The notes below the pieces were generated by a model, which did no database searches, was not told the DNA's origin, and was given only the letters and a program-made list of their open reading frames with translations. This document shows positions 6,732 to 22,428 of a stretch of DNA of 64,000 bases, piece by piece. The position numbers were made by a program, and so were the translations under genes. The stretch lies in contig NZ_CP059560.1 in NCBI RefSeq assembly GCF_017894385.1, positions 186,001 to 250,000 on the forward strand, written 5' to 3'. The stretch comes from Aromatoleum petrolei. Its GTDB lineage: Bacteria; Pseudomonadota; Gammaproteobacteria; Burkholderiales; Rhodocyclaceae. How positions within the stretch are numbered: position 1 is the stretch's first letter; each line of letters begins with the position of its first letter.

Positions 6732-8066
6732 TCACTGGACGGGCCTGGGGGCCAGTCGCCGCGCCTGCAACCAGTGCAAGGCGCGGCAGACTGATTCGTG
6801 AGGAGCGCTCAGCAGCCGGCTGAGGCGCTCGGGATCGGGAACCTGCAGTGTCCGGACCAACTGGTCGAGGCGCGCAAGGTCAATGCCGCCGATGAAGCGC
6901 ACGCCCCTGGGGTGCTCATCGCTGACGACGACGCTCCGATCGGTGATGAACCCGTCCTCTACGACGGGACGCATCACGAAAGCGGGCTCCCTGATCTCCG
7001 GCACTTCCATCGAAGGCCTTCGCGGAGCGATCGCGCGCTCCCAGAACTCCGCGTCCGGCCATCGGGTCTCGCTCCGGTAGTGCTCATGAGCCGCAGTGAC
7101 GCGTGATGCAAACACCTCGGAGGCCCGCTCGGTGAAATACCGGACTGCAAGGGAGGCGTCGTCCGGACGTTGCAGCAAAGTGTTGATCACGGGCGCCGCT
7201 GCGATGGCACCGGAAGCGGCTTCGAACACGCCGTGTCCCGAAAGGGGGTCGCAGCTATAGGCGGAATCGCCCACCCGCAAGAAATCCCTGCTCGCGACGC
7301 CACCTCGCAGTGCCGGCTGGATGCCGCGGGCGCGCGCGGGCCCGACAGGCCGAAGATTGCGTCCGAACCGCCGCCGCAGGCCGTGCAGATGCTCGAAGCA
7401 GGCGGCGTGCGTGGCGTCGAGATCGCCGCCGTGCGCAGAGACCGACTCCGGCAGGACCACGATCTGAATATGCGCCAGCCCCGAAGCTTCGACCGCCCCC
7501 CAGGCCCAGCCTTGGGCAAAGGATTCCACATACGTCGTGCGGGGCTGGATCGCCGCGCCGGTAAATGTGCGCGCGACCGCTACCCGCATTGCCTCGACTT
7601 GCAGGTCGGGCGCCTTCTTCGGTGCGGTACGGCCGCGGCACTCCACGATGACTTGCGCTGCTGTCCGCTGCGATCGGCCGGATTGATCTTCCCAGTGCAC
7701 GTACCACATGCCTTCTTCGACGTGCTCCAGCGTTCGCACCTTCCCCTCTCGCACGTCGATACCCGATGCACGGACATCGGCCAGCAGGGCGCGGTCGAAC
7801 GCGACGCGCTCGACCACGAATTCGCCATTCATCTCCACTTCCGCGCCATTCCACGACGACACGCGAAGCCAGCGCGGCCCCAGCATCGATAGCGCCTGCG
7901 AACATCCGAACTGCCTCAAGGCCTCGATGACGCGCTGGGAAAGACCTTCCGCTGCACCGCGTTGACGCGGTTGTCCGATCACCAGGGCAGACTGACCGCC
8001 CCTCGCTAGTGCGAGGGCAAGCAGGCAGGCCGAGGGACCTGCTCCGAGGATGACCACGGGATTCAT
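6732..8066 (-). CDS. qhpG: QhpG-like FAD monooxygenase for CTQ biogenesis
   Basis: A 444-residue flavoprotein of the tryptophan-halogenase/monooxygenase type. The N-terminal dinucleotide-binding loop is VVILGAGPSA, and the second FAD motif is RVGDSAYSCDPLSGHGVFEA. In characterised qhp systems QhpG hydroxylates a Trp of the gamma subunit on the way to cysteine tryptophylquinone. The open frame extends upstream to 8255, but the real start is ATG 8066. That ATG overlaps the stop of the CcmF-like gene as ATGA, which points to translational coupling. Identification rests on fold motifs plus the complete qhp context. Confidence 0.87.
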   Translation of the reverse strand: MNPVVILGAGPSACLLALALARGGQSALVIGQPRQRGAAEGLSQRVIEALRQFGCSQALSMLGPRWLRVSSWNGAEVEMNGEFVVERVAFDRALLADVRASGIDVREGKVRTLEHVEEGMWYVHWEDQSGRSQRTAAQVIVECRGRTAPKKAPDLQVEAMRVAVARTFTGAAIQPRTTYVESFAQGWAWGAVEASGLAHIQIVVLPESVSAHGGDLDATHAACFEHLHGLRRRFGRNLRPVGPARARGIQPALRGGVASRDFLRVGDSAYSCDPLSGHGVFEAASGAIAAAPVINTLLQRPDDASLAVRYFTERASEVFASRVTAAHEHYRSETRWPDAEFWERAIAPRRPSMEVPEIREPAFVMRPVVEDGFITDRSVVVSDEHPRGVRFIGGIDLARLDQLVRTLQVPDPERLSRLLSAPHESVCRALHWLQARRLAPRPVQ

Positions 8067-10201
8067 GACGTTTCCTTTCTTGAACGGAAGGCAAGCCACA
8101 ACGCGCCTCCCGAAGTGATCACGAGTCCGATCCAAAGCAACGACGCGAAAGGGAAAACTCGCAATACGACGACTGCCTGTTCCGGCTGGGCACCGCCTTC
8201 GAGCGCGGCGACCGCGGCGGAAGTGGAGACCCAAACCTGGACATCGCGCCCCCATCCCCGATCGATGAAGGGGTGAAGGACGTACCCCGGCTGATTGGCA
8301 TAGCGCGCGTAGCGGTAGTCGAGAATCTCGCAGATCTGGCGTACGGGACCGGCATAGCCTGCGACTGCAGCGCGTGCATCGCGATAGAGCGTCTCGCCGC
8401 CTATCACTTCCTGCGAAGGCGTTCGGAGCTCGACCTGTGCGAGTGCGCGGAAACTTCCCTTGCCGTCCCGGCGGCCGCCGTCGGCAGTGCGGTCAATATC
8501 CAGCGTCGTGACGCGGAACGCATATCCGTGGTGCTCGCCGCGCCAGTTGTCATTGGAAATATCGATGACATGCTGCGAATAGCCGTTCAGCGCGGTCGAC
8601 AGCAGCGCCCCCCACAGGCTCAGCATTGCACCGAGGTGCACCAGTCCGAGGGCGAGAACATATCCCCTGGCCGCCGCCTTCCGTGCAGCGTTGATGCTCC
8701 ATGCGAATACGCCGATCGCCAGATATCCTCCCGCAATGAGACTCGCATCGATACGAGGGAGAACGGCGACAATCTGCTGTGACAGGACACCCGTGCCCGA
8801 ATACTCCCGTGCGAGCATTCCCCCATCGGACCAGACAACGGCGCACACCAGCGATGCGAGAGTCAACGTTATCCAACCGAGGCGCGTCGCAACCCGCCGC
8901 ATGAAGAACCAACCGCCGATCAGTCCGACGCCGATCAACGGGAATAGCAATACCCGCGCGAGCGCATAGCCATCGACGTCCCATTGGGCGAACGCTGTAC
9001 GCAGCGCCGGTAGTTCGCTCCCGCGCGCCCAGTTGGTCAGCGTCGCAAAGAAGGGCTTCAATTCCTCCGGCCGGGGCAACCCTTTCGCGCTGGCAATGAA
9101 AGCCCACGCGAGATAGCCCCCCGCGAGCAGCCCCAGCATGGCAAACGCGAGTTGCGTCAGACGAAGCGCGCTGGCCGCGACCCCAATGCGCAGCGGGATC
9201 GACGTGACGCGATGCATCCCGTACATCCACGCCACGCCGGCGAACAAGACAAGTAAGCCCGCGAGCGAAAAATATAAGGAGGACGACGTCGCGCCGATGT
9301 AACGGTGAGAGCTGGCAAGGGCTTCGTGCCGCGTAACGCCCATCGCCACCATCGTCAGCGCCGCCGCAAGCGCCCCGGCCAGCGGCATCCAACGCCATGT
9401 CGGGCGCCCCGCACGCCAGCCCGCAATGCCGTGCAAATGCGCGCCAAGCAGGCACCAAGCGGCGAACACGGCGGTCTGGACCGGGTCCCAGTGCCAAACC
9501 TGCCCGTACATTGCATCCTCGAATGCCCACACCATGCCGAAGCCGATTCCTGCCGTGAGTAGCGCCCAGGCGCGCCGCGCCCGCATGAGTGCGTCGTTGG
9601 GCCACGTCGTCAGCGCTCCCGCGAGCGCGGCGATGGCCGGCGAAGCGAGGGACAGGGTCCACGCATACGCCGCCAGCACCAGCGGCGCATGCGCGAGCAT
9701 CCAGATCTTCATCAGGTGCGCGTTCATCCCCTGATACGCAGCGCGTGCCAGCCAATCGGCGGGCGTCGCCACGAACGGACCCGACAGCGCCGCCGTCAGC
9801 GCAAGTGCGGCGGCGACGATCGCATTGACGTCGGGGTGACGCCAAACCGCGGGCTTCGGTCCCAACAGACTCGCGCACACCGCCGCCAGCAGGAGCGTGG
9901 TTCCCTCGTCGCCTCCCCACACGTTCGCGAGCTTCAGATATGCGGGCAGCTCGGCACCGCTGTACAGCCACACGTAGCGGACATCGAAGCGGTCGGTAAG
10001 CATCAGGACCGCGAGGGCCAGGACGGCAGTCCATAGCCCCACGACACCCAGCCGCACACCCCGCAGCCGGTATCTATCGGACACCGCCGCCACGAGCAGT
10101 GCCAGACCGGCGCTGGCGACTAGCAGGTCCCCGACGCCGGGAAACAGCACGCACAATGCAGCGACGACAACGACCGTGATCCAGCTCTCGAGGTCACGCA
10201 T
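8063..10201 (-). CDS. CcmF/NrfE-like heme lyase embedded in the qhp operon
   Basis: A 712-residue polytopic membrane protein of the CcmF/CcsA heme-handling superfamily. It keeps the early CcmF block WGGDEGTTLLL (WGxHEGSLLLW in E. coli CcmF), a periplasmic-His region (LAHAPLVLAAYAW, matching FHPPLLYMGYVG) and a WWD-like motif, VWHWDPVQTAVFAAW. CcmF attaches heme to CxxCH cysteines of apocytochromes c. The partner here would be QhpA, which has two such sites. It overlaps qhpE by 8 bp and qhpG by 4 bp, so it is part of the operon. The ATG at 10201 is chosen over an upstream frame start at 10270. The sequence is divergent, so its specificity is inferred. Confidence 0.84.
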   Translation of the reverse strand: MRDLESWITVVVVAALCVLFPGVGDLLVASAGLALLVAAVSDRYRLRGVRLGVVGLWTAVLALAVLMLTDRFDVRYVWLYSGAELPAYLKLANVWGGDEGTTLLLAAVCASLLGPKPAVWRHPDVNAIVAAALALTAALSGPFVATPADWLARAAYQGMNAHLMKIWMLAHAPLVLAAYAWTLSLASPAIAALAGALTTWPNDALMRARRAWALLTAGIGFGMVWAFEDAMYGQVWHWDPVQTAVFAAWCLLGAHLHGIAGWRAGRPTWRWMPLAGALAAALTMVAMGVTRHEALASSHRYIGATSSSLYFSLAGLLVLFAGVAWMYGMHRVTSIPLRIGVAASALRLTQLAFAMLGLLAGGYLAWAFIASAKGLPRPEELKPFFATLTNWARGSELPALRTAFAQWDVDGYALARVLLFPLIGVGLIGGWFFMRRVATRLGWITLTLASLVCAVVWSDGGMLAREYSGTGVLSQQIVAVLPRIDASLIAGGYLAIGVFAWSINAARKAAARGYVLALGLVHLGAMLSLWGALLSTALNGYSQHVIDISNDNWRGEHHGYAFRVTTLDIDRTADGGRRDGKGSFRALAQVELRTPSQEVIGGETLYRDARAAVAGYAGPVRQICEILDYRYARYANQPGYVLHPFIDRGWGRDVQVWVSTSAAVAALEGGAQPEQAVVVLRVFPFASLLWIGLVITSGGALWLAFRSRKETS

Positions 10202-10844
10202 GGCGCCGCTCCGCCCCAACGTAGGCTGCGCGACAACGCAACTCGCGTCGTACGTCGAACGCATCTGCACCGCCTTCGAGCAAAGACCCGATCAATCCCG
10301 TCATCCGCGCCGCCGCGATACTCGCGCCGCCGCCACGCTCCGGATTGCGCGGATCGCAGAAGGGATGGGTGCCGAAGTCGGCGGCAGGCGTACCGAGCCA
10401 TGACACTTCGCCAGGAGCGCAGCGCGCGTCGCCCGTCACCGCGAGACAATCGCCCAGCGCGGCCGGAAACGTGACGCTTCCGCGTGCTGGCGCAGACGCG
10501 ACCAGAATGGCGCCAGCGCTCGCTGCGCGGCGGCAGGCGCTGGCGAGCCGCGCGCTCGCGCCCCCCATTCCGAAGCTCATGTTGATTAGCTGCACACCCC
10601 GGCTGACGAGCCAATCCAAACCTTCGAGAACCGCGTCGACGGACGAGTCGCGGCCCTCGCCAAAGACCTGCGCGACAAGCAATTCCGCGGAGGGGCAATG
10701 CTGGAGCACGCAGCTTGCGATCTGCGTGCCGTGACCCGTTCTGTCGTTACCCGCGGATGTCAGGAGACGAGTCTCGACGACCGCGGCCGCTGGTGCACCA
10801 CGGACCGCACTGTCGATCAGCCCGACGCGGATCGGCCTCAGCAT
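10194..10844 (-). CDS. qhpE: QhpE-like subtilisin-type serine protease
   Basis: A 216-residue S8-family protease without signal peptide, hence cytoplasmic. The catalytic triad is visible as Asp11 (GLIDSAV), His38 (TGHGTQIAS) and Ser175 (GGGASIAAA). It is shorter than secreted subtilisins, as known for QhpE, which removes the leader peptide of the QhpC gamma subunit after its crosslinks are made. It overlaps qhpF by 7 bp upstream and the CcmF-like gene by 8 bp downstream. Its position in a full qhp operon makes the assignment firm. Confidence 0.9.
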   Translation of the reverse strand: MLRPIRVGLIDSAVRGAPAAAVVETRLLTSAGNDRTGHGTQIASCVLQHCPSAELLVAQVFGEGRDSSVDAVLEGLDWLVSRGVQLINMSFGMGGASARLASACRRAASAGAILVASAPARGSVTFPAALGDCLAVTGDARCAPGEVSWLGTPAADFGTHPFCDPRNPERGGGASIAAARMTGLIGSLLEGGADAFDVRRELRCRAAYVGAERRHA

Positions 10845-12568
10845 GTAACACCTTGCGGGAGATCGATAATCCGATCGAAGGCGGCGGGATCGAGTTCGCG
10901 GTGGCTCACGATGATTCGTGTCGCCCGGGGGAGCAGCGCATCGATCGCCTGCAAGAAGCGCTGTTCGAGGGCTGTGTCTAGCGAGGACGTGCCCTCGTCG
11001 ATGATCAGAACGTCTGGCTTCATCAACAGCGCACGAGCAAGCGCAACACGTTGCCTTTCACCGCCCGACAGACTCGCCCCGCGCACGCCGACCGTCGCAT
11101 CGAGCGCGCCCGACAGTCGCTCGGCGAACTCGAAGACGCCGGCGGCGCGCGCCGCTCGTCGGACGTCCTCAGGCGTCGCATCGGGGCAGGCATAGCGTAT
11201 GTTGTCGGCAATGGAGCCGGAAAAGAGCACGGGCTCCTGCGAAACAACGACCACGTGCCGACGCAACACCCGGGGATCGAGCTCGCGAAGATCGATACCT
11301 CCGATCATGATCGAACCGCTGGCGGGATCGAACTGTCGGTGCAGCAGATCGATGAGCGTCGATTTCCCGCTTCCCGACACTCCCCGCAGCCAGACCTTCG
11401 CCCCGACGGGCACCGTGAGGCTCAATTCGGACAACACTCTTCGGGGCGATCCTGGATACACGAACGCCACATCACGCATCACAAGCTCGCCTGCAGCAAC
11501 GCGCCGACTGCCCGGTTGATCGGGCATAGTCACGGCCGGACTCAGACTGCGGACCTCTTCCACGCGGCCGAGACCAACCTTGACGCGCTGCCACTGCAGG
11601 TAAAGGCCCATCAGCGCATGCAGGGGCGCACTCGCCCGCTGGACGTAGGTTGCGAATGCAACCAGCGTGCCGAGCGTCAATGCATCACCCCCGATCATCG
11701 CCAGGCTGCCGCCCACGAAGATGCCGATGACCGCTAGGGACAACACGAGATTCGGGAATGCGCCCCCCAGGTAGCCAACGGCCTGCAGGGAAAGCATGCG
11801 ATCACGAACCGTGCGGTGGAGCGCGGCCAGGTGGGCGATCTCCCGCTTCTCGGCCACGTAAGTCTGGACGCAGCGCACGGCGCCGAGCTTCTCGACAAGG
11901 AAGCTCGACACCTCCACTCCCGCGTCCCGTGCTTTCAGCGAAAGTGCTTCGATGCGGGGCTTGACCCACGACAGCACAATTGCGTTGATGGCCATCAGGA
12001 CACCTAGATAGAGCGCGAGCATCGGACTCAGCATCGCGAGTAGCGCGACGGTCCCAATCAGCGTCAGGATGGAGTTGATCGCCGAAAGCACGGCATCGAC
12101 AGCGAAACGCTGCACTTCCCCGAGATCGCCTTCCAATCGCGCGATCAGATCACCCTGTCGCGTTTGCGAGAAGAACACGGGCGAAAGCGTCAACACATGA
12201 GCGAACAGCGATTCGCGCATGCGATGCAGCATCCGGGCGGATGCTGCAACGTGGATCCGGCGGCATGCAAATCCGATGACCAGTGCCACCAGGGCCAGCC
12301 CCACCATCAGGGCCCCGATCATCAACACACCCTGCCGGTCTTGCGCGAGGATGCCGTCGTCGATCAGTGCCTTTGTGAGGTAGGGCTGCGCCAAACCAGC
12401 CCCTACCGCCAGGAACGAGAGCAGAAGCACACCCGCGAAGGCAGGCGCTTCCGGACGAATGAACGCCCACAGCCAGCGGTACAGCGCGTTCAGGCGAGCC
12501 CCCTCGCCCTGCGCGGCCGACCGTGAAGCCGGTGCCGCACCGGCCATGCGAATGGCTTCTGCACTCAT
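10838..12568 (-). CDS. qhpF: QhpF-like ABC exporter (fused TMD-NBD)
   Basis: A 576-residue half-transporter with an N-terminal six-helix membrane domain and a C-terminal ATPase: Walker A GVSGSGKST, signature LSGGERQRVALARAL, Walker B VLIIDEGTSSLD, and the H-loop in IIVSHRE. In Paracoccus, QhpF is needed to move the processed gamma subunit to the periplasm. It starts 8 bp after the qhpB stop and overlaps qhpE. Other lipid- or peptide-exporting ABC proteins look alike, but the neighbours favour QhpF. Confidence 0.9.
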   Translation of the reverse strand: MSAEAIRMAGAAPASRSAAQGEGARLNALYRWLWAFIRPEAPAFAGVLLLSFLAVGAGLAQPYLTKALIDDGILAQDRQGVLMIGALMVGLALVALVIGFACRRIHVAASARMLHRMRESLFAHVLTLSPVFFSQTRQGDLIARLEGDLGEVQRFAVDAVLSAINSILTLIGTVALLAMLSPMLALYLGVLMAINAIVLSWVKPRIEALSLKARDAGVEVSSFLVEKLGAVRCVQTYVAEKREIAHLAALHRTVRDRMLSLQAVGYLGGAFPNLVLSLAVIGIFVGGSLAMIGGDALTLGTLVAFATYVQRASAPLHALMGLYLQWQRVKVGLGRVEEVRSLSPAVTMPDQPGSRRVAAGELVMRDVAFVYPGSPRRVLSELSLTVPVGAKVWLRGVSGSGKSTLIDLLHRQFDPASGSIMIGGIDLRELDPRVLRRHVVVVSQEPVLFSGSIADNIRYACPDATPEDVRRAARAAGVFEFAERLSGALDATVGVRGASLSGGERQRVALARALLMKPDVLIIDEGTSSLDTALEQRFLQAIDALLPRATRIIVSHRELDPAAFDRIIDLPQGVTC

Positions 12569-12576
12569 GTCCCGGC

Positions 12577-13686
12577 TCAGCGCGAGAAGATGCGCAACGA
12601 GGTCAGGACCTGGTCACCGCCACCCGGGGTCCGGATGTTTCCGATGCGCTTCAGGGTCTTGCTGTCGTGGACCGCGATGTCTCCCTGCGTACCGCCGATG
12701 TAGAGTTCCGAACCGTCGCTCGAAACGTTCACGTTGTAATAGGTGTGATCGAGATCGACGCGGTCCATCTTGCCGGTGTTCATGTCGGTCCGCGTGAGCT
12801 GCGTGTACACCGTATAGGCCTCGTTGCGCCGTACCGGGTTAATCGCCGTCGAGAACAGGACGACCGACGCGTCCTCGAACTCCTTGAAGCTCACCGTGTC
12901 CTTTTCCAGGTCCAGTGCCCATATTCCCGCCCGCAGCGCCGCCGGGTCCCCGGCGGCCTTGTCGGTGCTCGCGACGTAGAATGGCGTAGCAAAGATGTTC
13001 GTCTGCTCCCACTGCGGCCAGATGGCGAGCGTGTCGGGCTCTCCCCGGTTGGGGCGCTGCCAGCTCCGCCACGGATGGGTGCCCTTGACGGCCCCCGTCT
13101 GCGGGTCCAGTTTCAGCATGTCCCAGCTGAACGCATACAGCGAATCTCCCTTTCCCGAATAGGCAAGCGTCGAGACGCGGCGCGGTGTCGAAAGCTTGCG
13201 TGCCGGCTTCGCATCGGTCCCTGCATCAGTGCGATAGACGGCAATGTACGGGTCGAGCGACTTGTATTCGCCCGGGAGCAACTGCGTGGGATTCACGAAC
13301 ACGGCAAGCTCCTTGCCGTCGGGGCTCAGGTCCATCGCATAGGGCGCCTTGCCGCGAATATCGCCTCCCGACAATTCGGCGCGGAACACCTCCTTGCCCG
13401 ATTCGAGATCGATGCCCGACACGGTTTCCCAGCGGTTATGGATCACGTAGGCGACTTTGCCGTCGCGGGACGGCACCAGCGTGATCGGGCTGTTGCCCAT
13501 CGACGTGTTCGGAATCTGGTGCGTCGCCACGACCTTGCGTTCCTTCGCATCTGCGACAAACACGAGATTGGGTCGCGCCGCGGTAACGATGTAGTCCTTG
13601 GCAGCCAAGGCCCCCGCCGAATACATCGCCAGCGATGCCGCGATGGCGCTTGCGAGGCGGGTTGTTGTCGTCATTTTCGATGTCAT
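12577..13686 (-). CDS. qhpB: quinohemoprotein amine dehydrogenase beta subunit
   Basis: A 369-residue secreted beta-propeller protein. A signal peptide (ATG 13686, then ASAIAASLAMYSAGALAAKDY) is followed by repeated propeller blades such as DYIVTAARPNLVFVADAKER, SPDGKELAVFVNP and SSDGSELYIGGTQGDIAVHD. This YVTN-like layout is that of the beta subunit, which holds the gamma subunit and lines the active site. The open frame runs further upstream, but GGAGG about 12 bases before ATG 13686 and the signal peptide set the start. It follows qhpC by 41 bp. Confidence is high because the four-gene ADCB order is intact. Confidence 0.93.
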   Translation of the reverse strand: MTSKMTTTTRLASAIAASLAMYSAGALAAKDYIVTAARPNLVFVADAKERKVVATHQIPNTSMGNSPITLVPSRDGKVAYVIHNRWETVSGIDLESGKEVFRAELSGGDIRGKAPYAMDLSPDGKELAVFVNPTQLLPGEYKSLDPYIAVYRTDAGTDAKPARKLSTPRRVSTLAYSGKGDSLYAFSWDMLKLDPQTGAVKGTHPWRSWQRPNRGEPDTLAIWPQWEQTNIFATPFYVASTDKAAGDPAALRAGIWALDLEKDTVSFKEFEDASVVLFSTAINPVRRNEAYTVYTQLTRTDMNTGKMDRVDLDHTYYNVNVSSDGSELYIGGTQGDIAVHDSKTLKRIGNIRTPGGGDQVLTSLRIFSR

Positions 13687-13727: not shown

Positions 13728-14048
13728 TCACTTCGGGAACACGCTTTGCAGCGCTTTCCAGTCGCGCGCTGCATCGTCCCGACCGCTGTTCCATTCCGGG
13801 TAGTTGTGCAGCGTGTCCGGCACCTGAGCGGGCCACCAGCACGGGTCGGAACACCCGTAAAGATCGGCCTCCATCGGCTGACACAGTCCGGCAACCCCCA
13901 TGAAGGGATCGATTTCCCAGCCGGGATCGAAAGTGGTTGAACATCCCGCCACGGCGGCGGACATAGCGACGACCTTCTCCACCGCGTCCTCGGTGGGTGC
14001 GCTATCGATCTGGTGGGCTTTGCGGTTGAGCGGCTTGATTCGGTTCAT
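13728..14048 (-). CDS. qhpC: quinohemoprotein amine dehydrogenase gamma subunit (CTQ precursor)
   Basis: A 106-residue precursor of the cofactor-bearing subunit. All crosslink residues are present: Cys36/Glu45, Cys56/Asp62 and Cys70/Asp78 for the Cys-to-acid thioethers, and Cys66/Trp72 for the cysteine tryptophylquinone. The spacings equal those of the Pseudomonas putida mature subunit (7/16, 27/33, 41/49, 37/43), which places the mature N-terminus near residue 30 after a leader of about 29 residues. QhpD forms the thioethers, QhpG hydroxylates the Trp and QhpE cuts the leader. Its ATG overlaps the qhpD stop (ATGA). Confidence 0.96.
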
Positions 14049-15487
14049 AGTTCGGAGCTCCTGTTGGCAACGTGGCGATGAAGGAAGGCGGGGTTCTTCT
14101 CCAGGATTTCGAGATACGCTTCGATCCCGAAATCAACCCACTCCCTCAGCAGTTCGCAGTAGTGATAGACGGGCGAATGTGGGTCACTGAAATTGGCGTA
14201 GGACTCGTGATAGCAGCCCCCCGAACACAGGTTGCGGATGCGGCAGGTAGCGCAACCGCGTTCGGAACGGTCCAACGCGTGCTCGAGAAATGCACCGAGC
14301 TCTACCTTGGCAATGCCCGAATCGACGTTGCCGAAGGTCGGCAACTCCGACCCCGTGAAGCGATGGCAGAGATTCAGCTCACCCTTGTGATCGACGGCAA
14401 GCAAACCCACACCCGCGCCGCACGGCAGCGCTTTGCGACGTCCTTCGTAGAGGTCGCTGAGCATCTGGTGCATGTTGGAAAAGCCGGTGTTCTCCCCCCG
14501 GATGGCAGCCTCGACATACTCCCGCCCCAGGGACTTCATCGAATCGAACACCCCGCGGAGTTCGTCGCCCACGAGATTGAAGGTAGTGACCGGATTGCTC
14601 GTGACGGGCGCAAAACCGACCTCTGCAAATCCGATTTCATCCTTCAGATGGTGATGAATGGCCGAGACATCGGAGTACCCCGCCGTCAGCGTGACCCGTG
14701 CGCCAACCGGACGCGACTTGTAGCGGGACAGCAGCATCCGCGTCTTGGCCGCAACCACCTCATAAGTGCCCTTCCCGCCAATCGTCCTGCGTCGCCGGTC
14801 ATGGATGGCCTGCGGGCCGTCCATGCTGATCGAGACGCCGAAGCGATGTTCGTCGAAGTAATCGACGATCTCCTCGGTCAGCAAGGTGGCATTCGTGGTC
14901 AGCGAGAGGTCGAGCTGCTTGCCCTCCTCGCGGCAACGATCCTCGGCATACGCGGTGATCGCACGGATGAGCGGCATGTTGGTCAGGGGCTCGCCCCCGA
15001 AGAACACGACGTTTACCTGGCTGCGCTTCGCGCCCTCCCGCAACAGCAGTTCGATCCCTTTCTTTGCAGTCTCCAGGTCCAGCTTGTCGCCCTTTGACGG
15101 CGTGGTCAGGTCCTCCTTGTAACAATAGGTGCAGCTCAGGTTGCAGCCCGTATTCACGTTCAGAACGATCGTGCTGAGCGGAAACTCGGTGACACTGATA
15201 CCCGGACCGCGGTCGAGCATCGCGGGGTCGGCCCTGAGGACGCCAAGCGACTTGAGATCCTCCACTGCGTCCGCAACCAGCGTGGGGGAACCGCTATCGA
15301 GGAAGCGTTCCTGCAATTCCCCGAAACTCACCGTCGATCGCGGCCGCACGAAATCGAGAACCTCGCTCGTCATGCCATCGAGATCGAAGATGCCCGTGCT
15401 CGGCACGTGCAGCAGGACCCGGCGCCCCTTCACGGCAAGGTCGTGGAACGCATGGGCATCCACGTAGAGCAGATCGGCTTCAGACAT
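14045..15487 (-). CDS. qhpD: QhpD radical SAM/SPASM thioether-crosslinking enzyme
   Basis: A 480-residue radical SAM enzyme. The SAM cluster motif is CNLSCTYCY (CxxxCxxC). The C-terminal SPASM-type Cys-rich region includes [29 protein letters not shown] and HYCEL, for auxiliary Fe-S clusters. QhpD installs the three intrapeptide thioether bonds in QhpC. The long open frame begins at 15757, but ATG 15487 is preceded closely by AAGGAGA and lies 23 bp after the qhpA stop. It is translationally coupled to qhpC by a 4-bp overlap. The enzyme is oxygen-sensitive and cytoplasmic by family knowledge. Confidence 0.95.
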
Positions 15488-15510: not shown

Positions 15511-17130
15511 TCAGCGGATCGGGGGGTCGTTGAAACGCTGCACCGTCACGATCAGCGGCGCGGTCGCCTTCACCGTACGGGAGCCGTCCTTGACCGACGC
15601 GATCACCTTCAATTCGCCCGCGTTGTTGGTCTTGTACTTGCGCTCCGGATTGGGGCCCGCCCCGTTGGGCACGAAGAGTCCGTTCGGCTCGATCCGTCCT
15701 GCGTACTTGGTGTCCTTCATCTCGGCGGCAACCTTGTTGAGGTTGTCGACCGACCACGCCGCCGGAACCGGGCCGAGTGCGATGTCGTCTGCGCTGCCCG
15801 GCTTGCCGTCAGGCCCTGCAGCGAAGGCAATCGCCTCGAGCTGCGCGGGCACCTTGGGAATCGCCCCGCCGCCACCGCCAAGGCGTGCCATCGGATGCTC
15901 GGGAATGATCTTCACGTAATCGATCTGCCGGTAGATCTTCACCACATCGCTTCCCGCGGCCGACCCGACCTTGACCGCCCGGCTTCCGCTCGCCGCATCC
16001 TTCTCGACCTCGACCTCCGCGACCACCCGGTCCGCCGAGCGCTCGAGCACCTTCGCGACCTTCACGCCATTTCCGAGATCCACGTCGCCATTCAGGCCCA
16101 CCCCGTTGATGGCAATGCGCGCACGACTTCCTGCCCGCAGCATCGCCGGTTGCACTGACAGCACCGATGGCTGCGCCGCCTTGTCGGCCCGCACCGCCCG
16201 CATCGTCCCGCCGATCGAATCGTTGTTGGTTTCGAACCACCGCCCGGTGAGCTCGGTGCCCCCCGTCCCGAGGCTCATTACCTGATTGACTTCGCGGTTG
16301 CCCTGCTTGACCGATGCGCGCCATTCGTGCCCCGTGTAAACGACCGCCGCACCCTTGGCCGTCTCCGAAGTACCGTTCTCGTAACGCATCACCATGTCGA
16401 CGGAATAGCGATCGTCGCCGGTCCGTGTGATCGTCGCGCTTCCTTCGTAAGCGCCCATCCCCGGGCGATGTCCAACCAGGCGCCACGTTCCGCTCGCGTC
16501 GGCAGGCTTCTGTGCCTTCCACTGCTTCCAGCTGGCAGAGTCGAAGCCATACTGATTTGCCAGCTCTTTTACAGTGTCCCCGGTGGCAATCTCGAACCAG
16601 TTGCGATCGCGTCCGCCTGCCTGGATCTCAATCGCAGGAAACTGCCCCACGTGGAAGTGCACAAGCTTGCGCCAGTCAGCTTCCGTGCGTCGTTGTACGG
16701 CAATTCGCCCATACGAATGACAGCGCGCGCAGGTATCACCGATCAACTTGTTTTCGGCATGCTCGACGACGCTCGGCGTACGATCAACGATGTACCGATG
16801 CGTGAGCGTTTCATCCGGGGCAAGACCGTATGCGTCAGAAAGATGCTTCACGATTGCACTGCGCTCATCCCCCGTGAGCTTTACTCCGTGGGCAAACGAC
16901 ATTCGGGCGACCGTCATGTCCCACCCTTCGGGCGTACGCCGACTTTCGCTGATGCGATCCCATTTGCCCTCACCAGTAGCGGTGTGACACGAGGCGCACT
17001 TGCTGTTGACCAGCGCCTCGGCCGATACGGCAGCCCATGCGCCACCGGTTGAGACGAGCGGCGTCAGAAACCCCGCAATCGCAAGCAAAGCGCGACGGGA
17101 CGGTTTCATGACTGCATTGGTTATTCCCAT
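15511..17130 (-). CDS. qhpA: quinohemoprotein amine dehydrogenase alpha subunit (diheme)
   Basis: A 539-residue periplasmic subunit with a signal peptide (LLAIAGFLTPLVSTGGAWA). It has two heme c sites, CASCH (45-49) and CARCH (134-138), followed by Ig-like beta domains, the known layout of the alpha subunit. Electrons from amine oxidation at the CTQ pass through these hemes to a periplasmic acceptor. The start at 17130 has GGAGGAG at good distance; a second ATG at 17109 also gives a signal peptide. It is the first gene of the qhp operon, and the 17131-17367 region upstream holds promoter and operator sequences. Confidence 0.95.
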   Translation of the reverse strand: MGITNAVMKPSRRALLAIAGFLTPLVSTGGAWAAVSAEALVNSKCASCHTATGEGKWDRISESRRTPEGWDMTVARMSFAHGVKLTGDERSAIVKHLSDAYGLAPDETLTHRYIVDRTPSVVEHAENKLIGDTCARCHSYGRIAVQRRTEADWRKLVHFHVGQFPAIEIQAGGRDRNWFEIATGDTVKELANQYGFDSASWKQWKAQKPADASGTWRLVGHRPGMGAYEGSATITRTGDDRYSVDMVMRYENGTSETAKGAAVVYTGHEWRASVKQGNREVNQVMSLGTGGTELTGRWFETNNDSIGGTMRAVRADKAAQPSVLSVQPAMLRAGSRARIAINGVGLNGDVDLGNGVKVAKVLERSADRVVAEVEVEKDAASGSRAVKVGSAAGSDVVKIYRQIDYVKIIPEHPMARLGGGGGAIPKVPAQLEAIAFAAGPDGKPGSADDIALGPVPAAWSVDNLNKVAAEMKDTKYAGRIEPNGLFVPNGAGPNPERKYKTNNAGELKVIASVKDGSRTVKATAPLIVTVQRFNDPPIR

Positions 17131-17545: not shown

Positions 17546-19066
17546 TCAGAAGAACCCGAGGGCGTTGGGGCTATAGCTCACGAGAAGGTTCTTGGTCTGC
17601 TGATAGTGGTCGAGCATCATCTTGTGCGTTTCGCGACCGATGCCGGACTCCTTGTATCCGCCGAAAGTGGCGTGGGCCGGGTAAGCGTGGTAGCAGTTGG
17701 TCCACACGCGTCCGGCCTTGATGCCGCGGCCCATGCGGTAGGCACGGCTGCCGTCGCGCGACCACACGCCGGCGCCGAGGCCGTAAGGGGTGTCGTTGGC
17801 GATCTCGAGCGCTTCGGCTTCGTCCTTGAAGGTCGTCACGGCCAGCACCGGCCCGAAGATCTCCTCCTGGAAGATGCGCATCCTGTTGTGGCCCTTGAAC
17901 AGCGTCGGCTGGATGTAGTAGCCCTCCGCCAACTCACCCCCGAGACGGGCGCGGTCGCCGCCGATCAGAAGTTCGGCGCCTTCCTGGCGGCCCACCTCCA
18001 GGTAGGACAGGATCTTGTTCATCTGATCGGTCGAGGCCTGCGCGCCCATCATCGTCTCGGTATCGAGCGGACTGCCCTGCTTGATCGCCTTCACGCGGGC
18101 CAACACTCGATCCATGAACTGGTCGTACATCGACTCCTGGATCAGCGCGCGCGAGGGGCAGGTACACACTTCACCCTGATTGAAGGCGAACAGGACCATG
18201 CCCTCGACCGCCTTGTCGAAGAGGGCATCGTCCGCCGCTACGATGTCCTCGAAGAAGATGTTCGGCGACTTGCCGCCGAGTTCGAGCGTCGCCGGGATCA
18301 GGTTCTGCGCAGCAGCTTGGGCGATCACCCGGCCGGTGGCGGTGGACCCGGTAAATGCGATCTTGGCGATGCGCTTGCTGGTTGCCAGCGGCATACCAGC
18401 TTCGCGACCGAGGCCATTGACGACATTGAGCACGCCGGGGGGCAGCAGGTCGGCGATGAGCTCGACCAACACCATGATGGAAACCGGGGTCGATTCGGCG
18501 GGCTTCAGCACCACGCAGTTGCCGGCGCCGATCGCGGGTGCAAGCTTCCATGCCGCCATCAGGATCGGGAAATTCCAGGGGATGATCTGGCCGACGACGC
18601 CCAAGGGCTCGTGAAAGTGGTACGCCACGGTGTGTTCGTCGATTTCGCTGATGCCGCCTTCCTGCGCGCGCAGGCAGCCGGCAAAGTAGCGAAAATGGTC
18701 AATCGTCAGCGGAATGTCGGCATTCAGGGTCTCGCGGATCGCCTTGCCATTGTCGACGGTCTCGGCGTAGGCCAGCATTTCGAGATTGGTTTCCAGCCGG
18801 TCGGCGATCTTGAGCAGGATATTGGCGCGCTCGGCCGCAGAAGTGCGTCCCCACCTGTCGGCCGCGGCATGGGCGGCATCGAGGGCGAGATTGATGTCTT
18901 CCTCGGTGGAGCGGGCGACCTGGCAGAACGGCCGGCCGGAGATCGGCGTGACGTTTTCGAAATACTGGCCGCGCACCGGCGCGACCCACTTGCCGCCGAT
19001 GAAATTGTCGTAGCGGGTCTTGAACTGAACCTTGGCGCCTGCTTTGCCGGGCATCTCATAGATCAT
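17546..19066 (-). CDS. NAD-dependent aldehyde dehydrogenase (ExaC/AcoD-like)
   Basis: A 506-residue aldehyde dehydrogenase. The catalytic Glu is in LELGGKSPN and the nucleophilic Cys in [12 protein letters not shown], with the NAD-loop FTGSTATG. The sequence is of the ExaC/AcoD acetaldehyde-type group. It follows the U32 pair on the same strand and ends before a strong terminator, so it is the last gene of that operon. Amine oxidation by QHNDH yields an aldehyde and ammonia; this enzyme would oxidise the aldehyde to the acid in the cytoplasm. The functional link is an inference from shared operator repeats. A 107-bp gap separates it from the U32 gene, so an extra internal promoter is possible. 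Confidence 0.92.
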
Positions 19067-19173
19067 TTGCTTTATGTCTCCTGTTGCAGTGGTATTTGGA
19101 CAAATCGTCCATAGAGCGGTCGGTCATCCCAAGTCGGATGCGACCAGATTCCGTGATCAATCCAAAAGCCCGT

Positions 19174-20187
19174 TCAATACACGGCCTTTCGTAGCACTTC
19201 GGGGTAGTAGCACATGTACCCCGTCCTGCAGTGCTCGACGGACGGGCGCAGATTCTGTGCAAGACGCACGATTTCTTCCCCATGCTCACCTGCCTCGACG
19301 CGATCGAGCACAGCCTTCACCATCCGAACGCTGGCAAGCTTTCTTGCGGTTGGCGCTTCCCTGCCAGCGATCTTCACGGCCGCAACGCCGCCATTCAATA
19401 ATCTTGGCAATGCACAGAGGCCACAGGGGCCGAACGCCATGCCCTGCTCGTTCGTCGTGAATCCGCAGGAGAAGCGATACCAGAGCCACTTCTCGTATTC
19501 CTGATCGTTTTCCCGGAGGCTCTGGCACAGCGCCACCGACAGCTTCCTCGCGCCCCGCGGGCGATAGTCGCTCACATAGCGATCGAGACAGATCGGACCG
19601 CCCATGCGCTGGGGTAGATGAACAGTGCTGCAGGCGCCCTCCTCGAACACGCAGCCGTCATTGAGGATGAATACCTCGGTCTCCAGATCCGGGACCTCCG
19701 CCGCAATTTCACATGCTTCCTCGATCGTGACATCGCGAGGCAGGATCAATCGCGAGGCCCCCAGATCCCTGCAAAGGCGCGCCGCACTGCCATTACGACA
19801 AGTCGCGACCGAGCTGACATGAATGCGTCGCAGTGGAAGATGCAGGGAAAGCTCGCTGATCAGGCCCAGATCCGACGCAATCAGCGCATCCCCCCCGCGT
19901 TCGATGAAGAGTTTCCCCATTTCGACTGCCGCCTCAAGCTGTTCATCCGAATAGCTCTGAGCGTTGAGCACGAGTGAAAGCGTGCAACCGCTCTGCCGGG
20001 CCGAGCTTATTGCCGCCTCAAGCTCACGCAGACTGCGGAGGTTTCCTGAGGGGCGGCGGTTCGCATTTCGCACCTTGAATCGGCCAACCCAATCGTCCGG
20101 GACGAATCCGCAATAGAGCTCGTTTGCTCCTTCGCGAGCCAGGAGCGCCACTTCCTCCACTCTTGAAATCGGGGCAACAATTCTCAT
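19174..20187 (-). CDS. U32-family protein, UbiU-like
   Basis: A 337-residue member of the peptidase U32 superfamily. It begins with the U32 barrel strand (IVAPISRVEEVALLAREGANELYCG). It contains Cys179-x6-Cys186, the spacing of the first two 4Fe-4S ligands of UbiU, and further cysteines at 200, 221, 241, 255 and 258. UbiU/UbiV-type proteins act as pairs in oxygen-independent hydroxylation of ubiquinone precursors, while other U32 proteins act on RNA or collagen. The start overlaps the stop of the upstream partner as ATGA. It is unlikely to be the ubiquinone gene itself because it sits in an amine-oxidation regulon, but that cannot be excluded. Confidence 0.8.
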   Translation of the reverse strand: MRIVAPISRVEEVALLAREGANELYCGFVPDDWVGRFKVRNANRRPSGNLRSLRELEAAISSARQSGCTLSLVLNAQSYSDEQLEAAVEMGKLFIERGGDALIASDLGLISELSLHLPLRRIHVSSVATCRNGSAARLCRDLGASRLILPRDVTIEEACEIAAEVPDLETEVFILNDGCVFEEGACSTVHLPQRMGGPICLDRYVSDYRPRGARKLSVALCQSLRENDQEYEKWLWYRFSCGFTTNEQGMAFGPCGLCALPRLLNGGVAAVKIAGREAPTARKLASVRMVKAVLDRVEAGEHGEEIVRLAQNLRPSVEHCRTGYMCYYPEVLRKAVY

Positions 20188-21080
20188 ATCGGATCCCCAG
20201 GGACGACGAGCCGTGAAACAGATCCGCTATTGACAGCATCCAGGACGGCAGTGAGCATCTCGTCAGTCACCCGGCTCACGATCGAATTACCCAACTGAAA
20301 CACCTGCCGTTGGTCGTCTGCATGCGGTCGCGCAAGTCTCGCGCTCACCCGCAGACATTCCTTCCGGCAGCGACGTCCCACAGCAAATCGTTCGACGCCT
20401 CGCATTGCAGTCGAGCCGATTCGACACATCCTTCCCTTCGCTACACACGCGAACGGGACATGAACGCTGCCCGGCAGCGGCAGCGATGACAGTGCCCGTC
20501 GTGAGTCGAAGATCGGCACATCAACCTCCATTCGCACAAAACCGAGGCGCGCAAGCATGGCCTTCATTGGCCGCGCATCGAAGGGCGCAGACAAAGCTGA
20601 ATAGGCCGCGGGAATGCGCGGATCCTTCCCCATGCGACATAGAATCCGCCCTGCGACCAGCGTCAGGTTCGGGAAGTGCTCCCGGATGAAGTAAGCAGTT
20701 CCCCAGTCACTCACGATCACCTCCGATTCGTCAGGTAGGTGCGGCAATAGCTTACCGAGGGTCCGGAGATCGGCTGGCGCTGAAATCGGCGTAAGCAGTG
20801 AAAGGCGGCAATTCAACTCGGTCGCCACTCCCAGCGCGTTGAGCAAGGAACGCGACGCGGGGATCAAGTGCTCGCAGAATTCACTGCCGAGATAGACATG
20901 GGTCGGCGCTAGTTTTTCGAACAAATTTCCAAGCGCCGAATCGGCCAGCGTCCGGCGCCAATGCGTACTGCCATCGGTCTTGATCAGGGAGGACGCATCG
21001 ACAACAGAAACGGCAATTTCCGGAGCCCGAACTGCGACTTCCCGAGTCATACCTGCGATATCCGGCACGGCGCTATCCAT
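20184..21080 (-). CDS. U32-family protein, UbiV-like partner
   Basis: About 298 residues; a shorter U32-related protein with a barrel-like N-terminal half (VYLGSEFCEHLIP, RLSLLTPIS) and a cysteine cluster near the C-terminus. In numbering from the GTG at 21110, the cluster is Cys222-x6-Cys229 and Cys248-x3-Cys252. The C-x3-C pair matches UbiV. Pairing of a longer and a shorter U32 protein, with overlapping genes, is the UbiU/UbiV arrangement. ATG 21080 with GGGGGAGG just upstream is the preferred start; GTG 21110 is the alternative. It is first in an operon whose promoter carries the same repeats as qhpA. Confidence 0.72.
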   Translation of the reverse strand: MDSAVPDIAGMTREVAVRAPEIAVSVVDASSLIKTDGSTHWRRTLADSALGNLFEKLAPTHVYLGSEFCEHLIPASRSLLNALGVATELNCRLSLLTPISAPADLRTLGKLLPHLPDESEVIVSDWGTAYFIREHFPNLTLVAGRILCRMGKDPRIPAAYSALSAPFDARPMKAMLARLGFVRMEVDVPIFDSRRALSSLPLPGSVHVPFACVAKGRMCRIGSTAMRGVERFAVGRRCRKECLRVSARLARPHADDQRQVFQLGNSIVSRVTDEMLTAVLDAVNSGSVSRLVVPGDPI

Positions 21081-21146
21081 GTCCTCCCCCTGTTTAACCT
21101 CCCGCGGCACCGGAACGCTTCCACGGCGCGCAGGTCTGTGGGGAGG

Positions 21147-21175
21147 ATGCTAGGGCGGAGCCTGCATTCGGTGTA
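21147..21175 (-). promoter_or_regulatory. candidate promoter of the U32/aldehyde dehydrogenase operon
   Basis: On the minus strand a weak -35 (TACACC, 21170-21175) and a -10-like TAGCAT (21147-21152) are 17 bp apart. The -35 shares two bases with the proximal operator repeat, exactly as at the qhpA promoter. Confidence 0.5.
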
Positions 21176-21221
21176 TCGCGAAACGGCCACGCCCGCATCA
21201 GGGCTATCAAGAATCGGCCTT
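21174..21221. promoter_or_regulatory. paired direct repeats, probable QhpR operator upstream of the U32 operon
   Basis: TATCGCGAAACGGCCAC (21174-21190) and TATCAAGAATCGGCCTT (21205-21221) lie 31 bp apart. Their shared core is TATCNNGAAWCGGCC. The pair and its order repeat upstream of qhpA. The araC-type regulator gene starts 180 bp away in the other direction, so the site could also control it. Confidence 0.65.
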
Positions 21222-21399
21222 ACTGTTGATTGCGCGGGCAAAGGTGCTTGTTGTCGCCTTGGCCTAGCACCTAAGATGTATCTCGCTGGTGCTGCTAGCA
21301 CCGTCATGTTCGGCGCGCGATGGGGACTGCTTCACCGTCTCGGGTCCGTCGGGCAAGGGGCCGCATTCTCGCGGCAGCACATGAGGAGACAAAACTACA

Positions 21400-22428
21400 A
21401 TGAACTCTGGCCTGATTCAGGACCGGGAGACGCCGCGTCGGCGAAACGAACGGGTGTCGATCATCTCGACCAATGATGCGTGCGAGCATGCCGCGAGCCT
21501 TCGCGACTGGTCGCAGGACTATCTTCAACTCTCACAGGGCGCTTTCGAGGGGGAAATAATCGAAGCCACGGTGGGTCCGATGCAGGTCTTCAAGGAAACG
21601 ATCCGCCAATCCGTCGATGAGAAGGCAAGCCCTCGTTGCGACAGTTATACGATAGGAGTGCCTGCCTCCGTAACTCCCAACGGTTATTGGCAGGGACGCC
21701 ATTTGGAGCGCGATTCATTGATTACGCTCTGCCCGAATGAGGAACTTCATTTTCGGACTCCTATGGAGTCAACGATTCTTGTCACGGTCATCGACTGCAA
21801 CGCATTTGACTCGTTCGCTCAGGACTCCGCAGCAGTGGATGTACTGCCATTGATTTCAAAGTCGCATGCGGCCGCCTTGCCCGGGGATGCTGCTCAGACC
21901 TACCGCGTGATGCTCGAAACGGTGCTTTCCTCAGTGGCTTCGACTCCCGAGATCTTTGAGCACAGTGCGTCGGCGCAGTCAGTTGCCGAAACGGTAATGA
22001 ATGCATCGCTAAATGCCCTGCGGGCACGATCCCAGGAAACAGAGTCGCCTCGCACCTCGCATTCGGTCCAACGCGCAATTGTTGAGCGGGCACGCAGCTA
22101 CGTGATCGCCAATCGAGAGAATCCGCCAACGGTTGCCGAACTCAGCTCTTATCTGAAGATGAGCCGAAGAGGACTTCACCACGCATTCATCAACGTGCTG
22201 GGAATCAACATCACGACGTTCCTGCGCTATGTTCGGCTCCACGGTGTCCGCAAGGAATTGCTGCGCGCCACTCCGGAGGACTCGATTAGCGGCATTGCCT
22301 GCAAATGGGGGTTCTGGCACATGGGAATGTTTTCCTCCTACTACAAGTGCCTGTTCGGAGAAACCCCATCATCGACCCTGCGCAGGACGTCCAACTTTTC
22401 CAAAGTTGCCTCTCGCCGTCACCATTAA
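21400..22428 (+). CDS. qhpR: AraC-family regulator, QhpR-like
   Basis: A 342-residue regulator with a non-cupin N-terminal domain and a C-terminal double helix-turn-helix (PPTVAELSSYLKMSRRGLHHAF, then ISGIACKWGFWHMGMFSSYYK). This resembles the FeaR/EutR-like AraC proteins that often respond to amines or aldehydes. QhpR is the known AraC-type activator of qhp operons, and this is the only AraC gene in the region. The start has GAGGAG about 11 bases upstream. It is divergent from the U32 operon, and paired repeats in both target promoters are the likely binding sites. Confidence 0.84.
   Translation: MNSGLIQDRETPRRRNERVSIISTNDACEHAASLRDWSQDYLQLSQGAFEGEIIEATVGPMQVFKETIRQSVDEKASPRCDSYTIGVPASVTPNGYWQGRHLERDSLITLCPNEELHFRTPMESTILVTVIDCNAFDSFAQDSAAVDVLPLISKSHAAALPGDAAQTYRVMLETVLSSVASTPEIFEHSASAQSVAETVMNASLNALRARSQETESPRTSHSVQRAIVERARSYVIANRENPPTVAELSSYLKMSRRGLHHAFINVLGINITTFLRYVRLHGVRKELLRATPEDSISGIACKWGFWHMGMFSSYYKCLFGETPSSTLRRTSNFSKVASRRHH

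Follow-up and report, generated by a model that had tools for sequence, protein, structure and literature searches.

A UbiU/UbiV-like U32 protein pair in qhp operons as a candidate oxygen-independent tryptophan dihydroxylase for CTQ maturation

The quinohemoprotein amine dehydrogenase (QHNDH) operon in the window, the 64,000-nt stretch of Aromatoleum petrolei DNA analysed here, is headed by two genes for U32-type proteins, one short (U32S) and one long (U32L). We consider it probable, at roughly 0.78, that this pair is an O2-independent peptidyl-tryptophan dihydroxylase, an Fe-S heterodimer acting in CTQ maturation with prephenate as its probable oxygen donor. The evidence is sequence-based and comprises the pairing of the two proteins, their cysteine pattern, the U32 fold, their operon membership, the replacement of QhpG and the intact substrate. 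An earlier note made from the window alone had suggested that the CTQ tryptophan could be modified by a route needing no O2; linkage to qhp, replacement of QhpG and the recurrence of that swap now lend it support, and the note's alternative, that the pair repairs or modifies a cofactor, is not favoured.

The window contains a qhp operon, as indicated by equivalogs of qhpA, qhpD and qhpB and by the CTQ-forming Cys and Trp of its QhpC (Table 1). Eleven same-strand genes run in the order U32S-U32L-ALDH-QhpA-D-C-B-F-E-CcmF-QhpG, separated by gaps of −8 to +107 bp with the exception of 415 bp before qhpA; the start of the CcmF-like gene was chosen. The qhpG gene lies inside the window and was absent from the earlier note. 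FNR-type boxes (TTGAT-N4-ATCAA, up to two mismatches), sought as an indication of anaerobic control, number 16 across the whole window versus 9.8 expected, with none beside the U32 pair; there were none at window positions 18094–22195 and none near the pair in locus L048. The CcmF-like gene recurs in 20 of the 51 qhp loci that were compared, and its product is perhaps concerned with heme attachment to QhpA.

Table 1. Genes of the qhp locus in the window
Feature	Coordinates	Strand	Evidence or remark
AraC/EutR-like regulator, divergent, candidate qhpR	21400..22428	+	
U32S, short U32-fold protein, UbiV-like	20184..21080	-	298 aa, counted from ATG
U32L, long U32 protein, UbiU-like	19174..20187	-	337 aa, PF01136
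Aldehyde dehydrogenase, ExaC equivalog	17546..19066	-	951 bits, cut-off 900
qhpA, alpha subunit	15511..17130	-	TIGR03908, NCBIfam equivalog, 769 bits, above cut-off
qhpD, radical SAM maturase	14045..15487	-	TIGR03906, NCBIfam equivalog, 802 bits, above cut-off
qhpC, gamma subunit precursor	13728..14048	-	106 aa; CTQ Cys and Trp present
qhpB, beta subunit	12577..13686	-	TIGR03907, NCBIfam equivalog, 509 bits, above cut-off
ABC transporter, which we take to be qhpF	10838..12568	-	Name by position
S8 protease, qhpE	10194..10844	-	Name by position and fold
CcmF-like cytochrome c assembly protein	8063..10201	-	PF01578
qhpG, O2-dependent peptidyl tryptophan dihydroxylase relative	6732..8066	-	PDB 7ctq match, 1.7e-50

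The ORF coordinates confirm the 4-bp overlap between the long and the short U32-type gene that had been noticed earlier, with both genes on the minus strand; a GTG at 21110 is an alternative start for U32S and would give 308 aa. U32L scored 128.8 bits against PF01136 (Peptidase_U32) in a Pfam profile search, above the gathering cut-off of 22.4, and its best NCBIfam match was UbiU (NF047963), at 74.7 bits below the equivalog cut-off of 440. U32S matched no Pfam family, PF01136 included, at E values up to 1. Among 28 members of the U32S family, PF01136 was absent at E values up to 0.1, nothing was returned at E values below 0.016 and no Pfam family was matched by more than one member. The predicted fold of U32S is good (pLDDT 84.0, pTM 0.85) and that of U32L fair (pLDDT 76.6, pTM 0.79), with pLDDT under 50 in the cluster loop (residues 178–203) that carries three ligand cysteines. 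In Foldseek searches, the U32 structure 5d88 was the best match of U32L (2e-7) and the third-best of U32S (2e-4), whose top rows include unrelated TIM barrels. Comparison of profiles gave a mutual match between U32L and U32S (89 % over 84 columns) and a weak one between U32S and UbiV (6.9 % probability, 137 colinear columns), in which the UbiV side consisted of eight rather similar rows.

UbiU and UbiV are described as a heterodimer that hydroxylates without O2, with cluster ligands C169, C176, C193 and C232 in UbiU and C39, C180, C193 and C197 in UbiV (PMC6747719). The resemblance to these 4Fe-4S ligands that the earlier note had seen was borne out in part on alignment, with a UbiV-like pattern in U32S and three U32L cysteines aligned with UbiU ligands. 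C179-x6-C186-x13-C200-x54-C255 of U32L is invariant in 22/22 aligned rows, picked from the best 120 of 564 matches, and C258, C26, C130, C320 and C326 are likewise kept across them. The first three UbiU ligands align with C179, C186 and C200; the fourth is unaligned, with C255 and C258 as possible counterparts. For U32S (numbered after the 288-aa form P0001), C59 and C209-x18-C228-x3-C232 are invariant in 28/28 rows picked from 103 matches. UbiV C39, C193 and C197 align with C59, C228 and C232, and C209 lies near UbiV C180, a few columns off, with a spacing of X18 versus the CXnCX12CX3C of UbiV.

A branch with 100/100 support in the U32 tree separates 18 qhp long proteins from UbiU, TrhP, RlhA and the other U32 proteins of the window genome. 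This genome encodes a genuine UbiU, at 58 % to that of E. coli, and a genuine UbiV, at 39 %, at C1:3.16 Mb, away from qhp. The earlier note had named a pair lying inside genuine UbiU/UbiV, with no other copy in the genome, as a result that would speak against its idea; we found a separate clade and a UbiU and UbiV elsewhere. Judged by this placement, the qhp U32 pair are not UbiU/UbiV. Four more U32 genes stand in tandem in the same genome (C1:2478633-2483166, L006-L009 of G000) and show no close kinship to UbiU, TrhP, RlhA or the qhp pair.

The occurrence of the pair was compared with that of QhpG in 70 qhpD genomes, of which 43 carry QhpG only, 16 the U32 pair only, 10 both and 1 neither. 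The single 'neither' genome compares with 10.7 expected (Fisher p 3e-8), p-values here being guides, as the genomes compared are related. The set is the union of an order draw (qhpD in 3/300) and a family draw (38/249), both sampled regardless of U32, an alphaproteobacterial draw (7/385, with the centre G559, picked for its U32 gene, excluded from the count) and the genus of Pseudomonas G543 (24/25, G543 and G547 being known beforehand to have U32). The home family and order (n=40), where QhpG-only calls have E values below 1e-20, contributed 16 U32-only, 16 QhpG-only, 8 'both' and no 'neither' genomes (p 1.2e-5, or 0.001 when the same genomes are collapsed to 18 genera). Five of the six Alphaproteobacteria are QhpG-only and one (G884, the sole 'neither') has a broken qhp contig of 5.4 kb, and the 24 Pseudomonas genomes divide into 22 QhpG-only and 2 with both. 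In three 'both' genomes (G340, G458 and G504) the QhpG homologue stands alone, with no qhp genes within the 10–17 kb fetched; counted by operon, these become U32-only.

Diverged QhpG was sought with a profile of 19 rows and 26 invariant columns in 40 genomes, including the 16 U32-only genomes and four positive controls; for most of them, scoring was confined to 42 first-look candidates. Full-length QhpG returned 265 to 587 bits and fragments in G561 returned 124 to 151, and 15 of the 16 U32-only genomes gave at most 37.8 bits or no match with this profile. The least clean case is U32-only genome G387, with a partial match of 121.6 bits in a 498-aa frame, which we read as a paralogue because similar weak matches (494–499 aa) occur in G466 and G495, both of which have a true QhpG. 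ORF clustering of 51 loci (24 U32-only, 6 'both' and 21 QhpG-only, selected by those labels) returned no third family that was present in all U32-only loci and absent from QhpG-only loci.

A scan of genome contigs with U32S found 35 loci, in every one of which a long U32 gene adjoins the short one; QhpD is visible in 17 of these stretches, and many of the others end at contig edges. Of the 32 genomes to which these loci belong, 29 have QhpD, so that the pair goes together with qhp, a co-occurrence the earlier note had proposed looking for. The other three are MAGs G566 and G567, which have small contigs, and the Omnitrophota MAG G571. QhpG is present in 11 and absent from 21 of the 32, ten of which are members of the first set too (identical contig coordinates). 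Those without QhpG include, beyond the home family, G556 (Rhodospirillales), G557, G559 (Magnetospirillum), G560, G563 (Phaeospirillum) and G568 (Nitrospinota). Among the 45 QhpD stretches that were fetched, 15 have the pair immediately after qhpE. None of the plasmid records matches U32S, though 27 carry QhpD.

On a maximum-likelihood QhpD tree of 63 sequences, the U32-only label needs seven changes, at least six of them forced by well-supported branches, and the three labels together need 13. Labels were assigned by fetched stretch, with exceptions where the partner lay on a different contig of that genome (L061, L074, L112 and L113); G340, G458 and G504 were labelled U32-only, and L042 and L073 are long branches. 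On this tree, the swap between U32 and QhpG is recurrent.

Several related loci lie apart from qhp. QhpG homologues stand alone, away from qhp, at L093, L094, L095 and L122; their annotation on plasmid pAZKH of Azoarcus sp. KH32C is 'tryptophan 7-halogenase', a name also given publicly to QhpG relatives of Leisingera (plasmid records H31-H40), for which it is probably misleading. The U32 pair of Pseudomonas schmalbachii (L014 9944-11856; G543) is far from the two qhp operons and from QhpG and adjoins a gene for a GAD-like domain protein. On Omnitrophota contig L045 (8877-13345), which has no qhp, a distant long and short U32 pair (27 % each) shares the Cys motifs and adjoins genes for an unassigned 305-aa protein, for PqqD and for a radical SAM enzyme; judged by these neighbours, it looks like a peptide-modifying cluster.

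The substrate is kept throughout. QhpC residues C66, C70, W71, W72 and D78 are invariant in 82/82 loci, duplicates counted. The published CTQ pair is Cys37/Trp43, with a Cys41-Asp49 ring (PMC7876137); by comparison with these, CTQ would form from C66 and W72, and the residue spacing agrees with both published pairs. Since the CTQ residues are invariant, operons without QhpG still make the CTQ precursor. As would befit a functional analogue of QhpG, the U32 pair is present where QhpG is absent, and the QhpC residues are kept there.

To our knowledge, QhpG is the one enzyme known to add two oxygens to the CTQ tryptophan. Both oxygens are reported to come from O2, within a QhpC-QhpD-QhpG complex, and QhpG is described as also promoting, in this ternary complex, the crosslinking catalysed by QhpD (PMC7876137). 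Of the two qhp operons of Aromatoleum aromaticum (G392, whose short protein is identical to a record under that name), each carries the U32 pair and one lacks QhpG; the window genome is alike in that its second qhp operon, at C1:4.10 Mb, has the pair but not QhpG. In the denitrifying A. aromaticum, two such amine dehydrogenases reportedly initiate anaerobic amine degradation, to judge by the title of the study, and its authors are said to regard CTQ maturation there as independent of O2. If these enzymes do act anaerobically, O2-free synthesis of CTQ needs explaining, as QhpG requires O2. Several observations count against the pair as the answer: QhpG stands in the window operon too; U32S matches UbiV only weakly by profile; the U32L model is poor in the cluster loop; the upstream side of the pair has no FNR-type box; and the plasmid qhp operon of Paracoccus pantotrophus, a strain from a denitrifying plant, has QhpG but gave no U32 match. 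The lone QhpG homologues of G340, G458 and G504, the partial QhpG match in G387 and the 'neither' genome G884 also belong on this side.

Ring hydroxylation by UbiUV needs no O2 (PMC6747719, PMC11574389), and the oxygen is reported to derive from prephenate (PMC11574389); the hydroxylation is also treated in PMC10470549, which predates the prephenate finding. By analogy, we infer for the qhp pair cluster binding, heterodimer formation, hydroxylation, an oxygen donor and a role without O2. U32S and U32L would each bind one 4Fe-4S cluster and associate as a heterodimer. QhpD would first form the thioether crosslinks in QhpC, and the heterodimer would then bind crosslinked QhpC and add both ring oxygens to precursor W72 in two hydroxylations, the oxygen coming from an organic donor, probably prephenate, in place of O2. 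In QhpG-less operons the pair would be the only route; where an operon has both QhpG and U32, like that of the window, its use would be in growth at low oxygen. We lean slightly towards the broader view that the pair is the first known U32 hydroxylase acting on a protein, that its donor is prephenate and that it belongs to a larger class of U32 pairs which modify peptides alongside radical SAM maturases, the pair on the Omnitrophota contig being another possible member.

Other roles within or near the operon were weighed against the distribution of the pair. It could serve another step in QHNDH maturation, such as the Cys-Trp bond, the oxidation that yields the quinone, electron supply to QhpD or the chaperoning of QhpC as QhpG does, with U32-only operons using some other oxygenase for the tryptophan. 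The role of QhpG in promoting QhpD crosslinking (PMC7876137) could then be what is replaced, and QhpG and U32 do occur together in 10 of the 70 genomes; we nevertheless hold this to be unlikely, as the U32-only loci share no further gene family and the pair tracks the absence of QhpG, not that of QhpD, which is everywhere by selection. Somewhat less likely still is a pair that hydroxylates or otherwise processes a small molecule in the catabolism of amines or aromatics, its tie to qhp being one of co-regulation only. The adjoining aldehyde dehydrogenase gene would suit such a function, as would the location of the pair away from qhp in several genomes (e.g. Pseudomonas G543), but it would leave unexplained both the 16 of 70 qhpD genomes that lack QhpG yet keep the CTQ residues and the scarcity of 'neither' genomes.

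The family name of PF01136 invites the reading that the U32 proteins are peptidases processing QhpC or the amine dehydrogenase. We regard this as very improbable, given that the operon already has the S8 protease qhpE, beside the pair in the 15 stretches mentioned above, that those U32 enzymes which have been characterised are reported to be Fe-S oxidases (PMC11574389) and that the ligand-type cysteines are invariant in the qhp U32 rows. Least credible of all are genuine UbiU/UbiV paralogues for ubiquinone synthesis, located here by chance: UbiU is indeed the best NCBIfam match of U32L, but its score falls far under the cut-off, the genome has its own UbiU/UbiV and the qhp long proteins form a separate, fully supported clade.

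As an O2-independent tryptophan dihydroxylase, the U32 pair is a concrete, testable candidate for O2-free CTQ synthesis and suggests a general enzymatic means of hydroxylating peptide side chains without O2. If this reading is true, it explains how some bacteria build QHNDH without air, adds proteins to the quinones and RNA on which U32 hydroxylases act and provides a marker for amine-oxidising systems that work anaerobically. The literature searched held no prior report linking U32 proteins to QHNDH or tryptophylquinone; Schmitt et al. 2019, which lay outside it, may discuss the matter.

Among known systems, the pair is most reminiscent of UbiU-UbiV, the O2-independent ubiquinone hydroxylases of E. 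coli, in its adjacent long and short U32-type genes, its UbiV-like Cys pattern with the first Cys far upstream and its three aligned UbiU ligand cysteines. It differs in forming its own clade, in being linked to qhp rather than ubiT, in a short partner that Pfam does not recognise and in its substrate, which would be a protein side chain. The U32 RNA hydroxylases TrhP and RlhA share the family and a prephenate-linked, O2-free hydroxylation (PMC11574389), whereas their substrates are RNA and their branches are separate from the qhp long proteins in the tree. QhpG would perform the same step on the same substrate, and it and the U32 pair replace each other across genomes; QhpG is, however, an FAD-dependent flavoprotein for which O2 is the source of both oxygens (PMC7876137), and its fold is unrelated to U32. 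Compared with the qhpABCDEFGR operon, the window operon has homologues of A, B, C, D, E, F and G but adds the U32 pair, which in 16 of the 70 qhpD genomes occurs without G.
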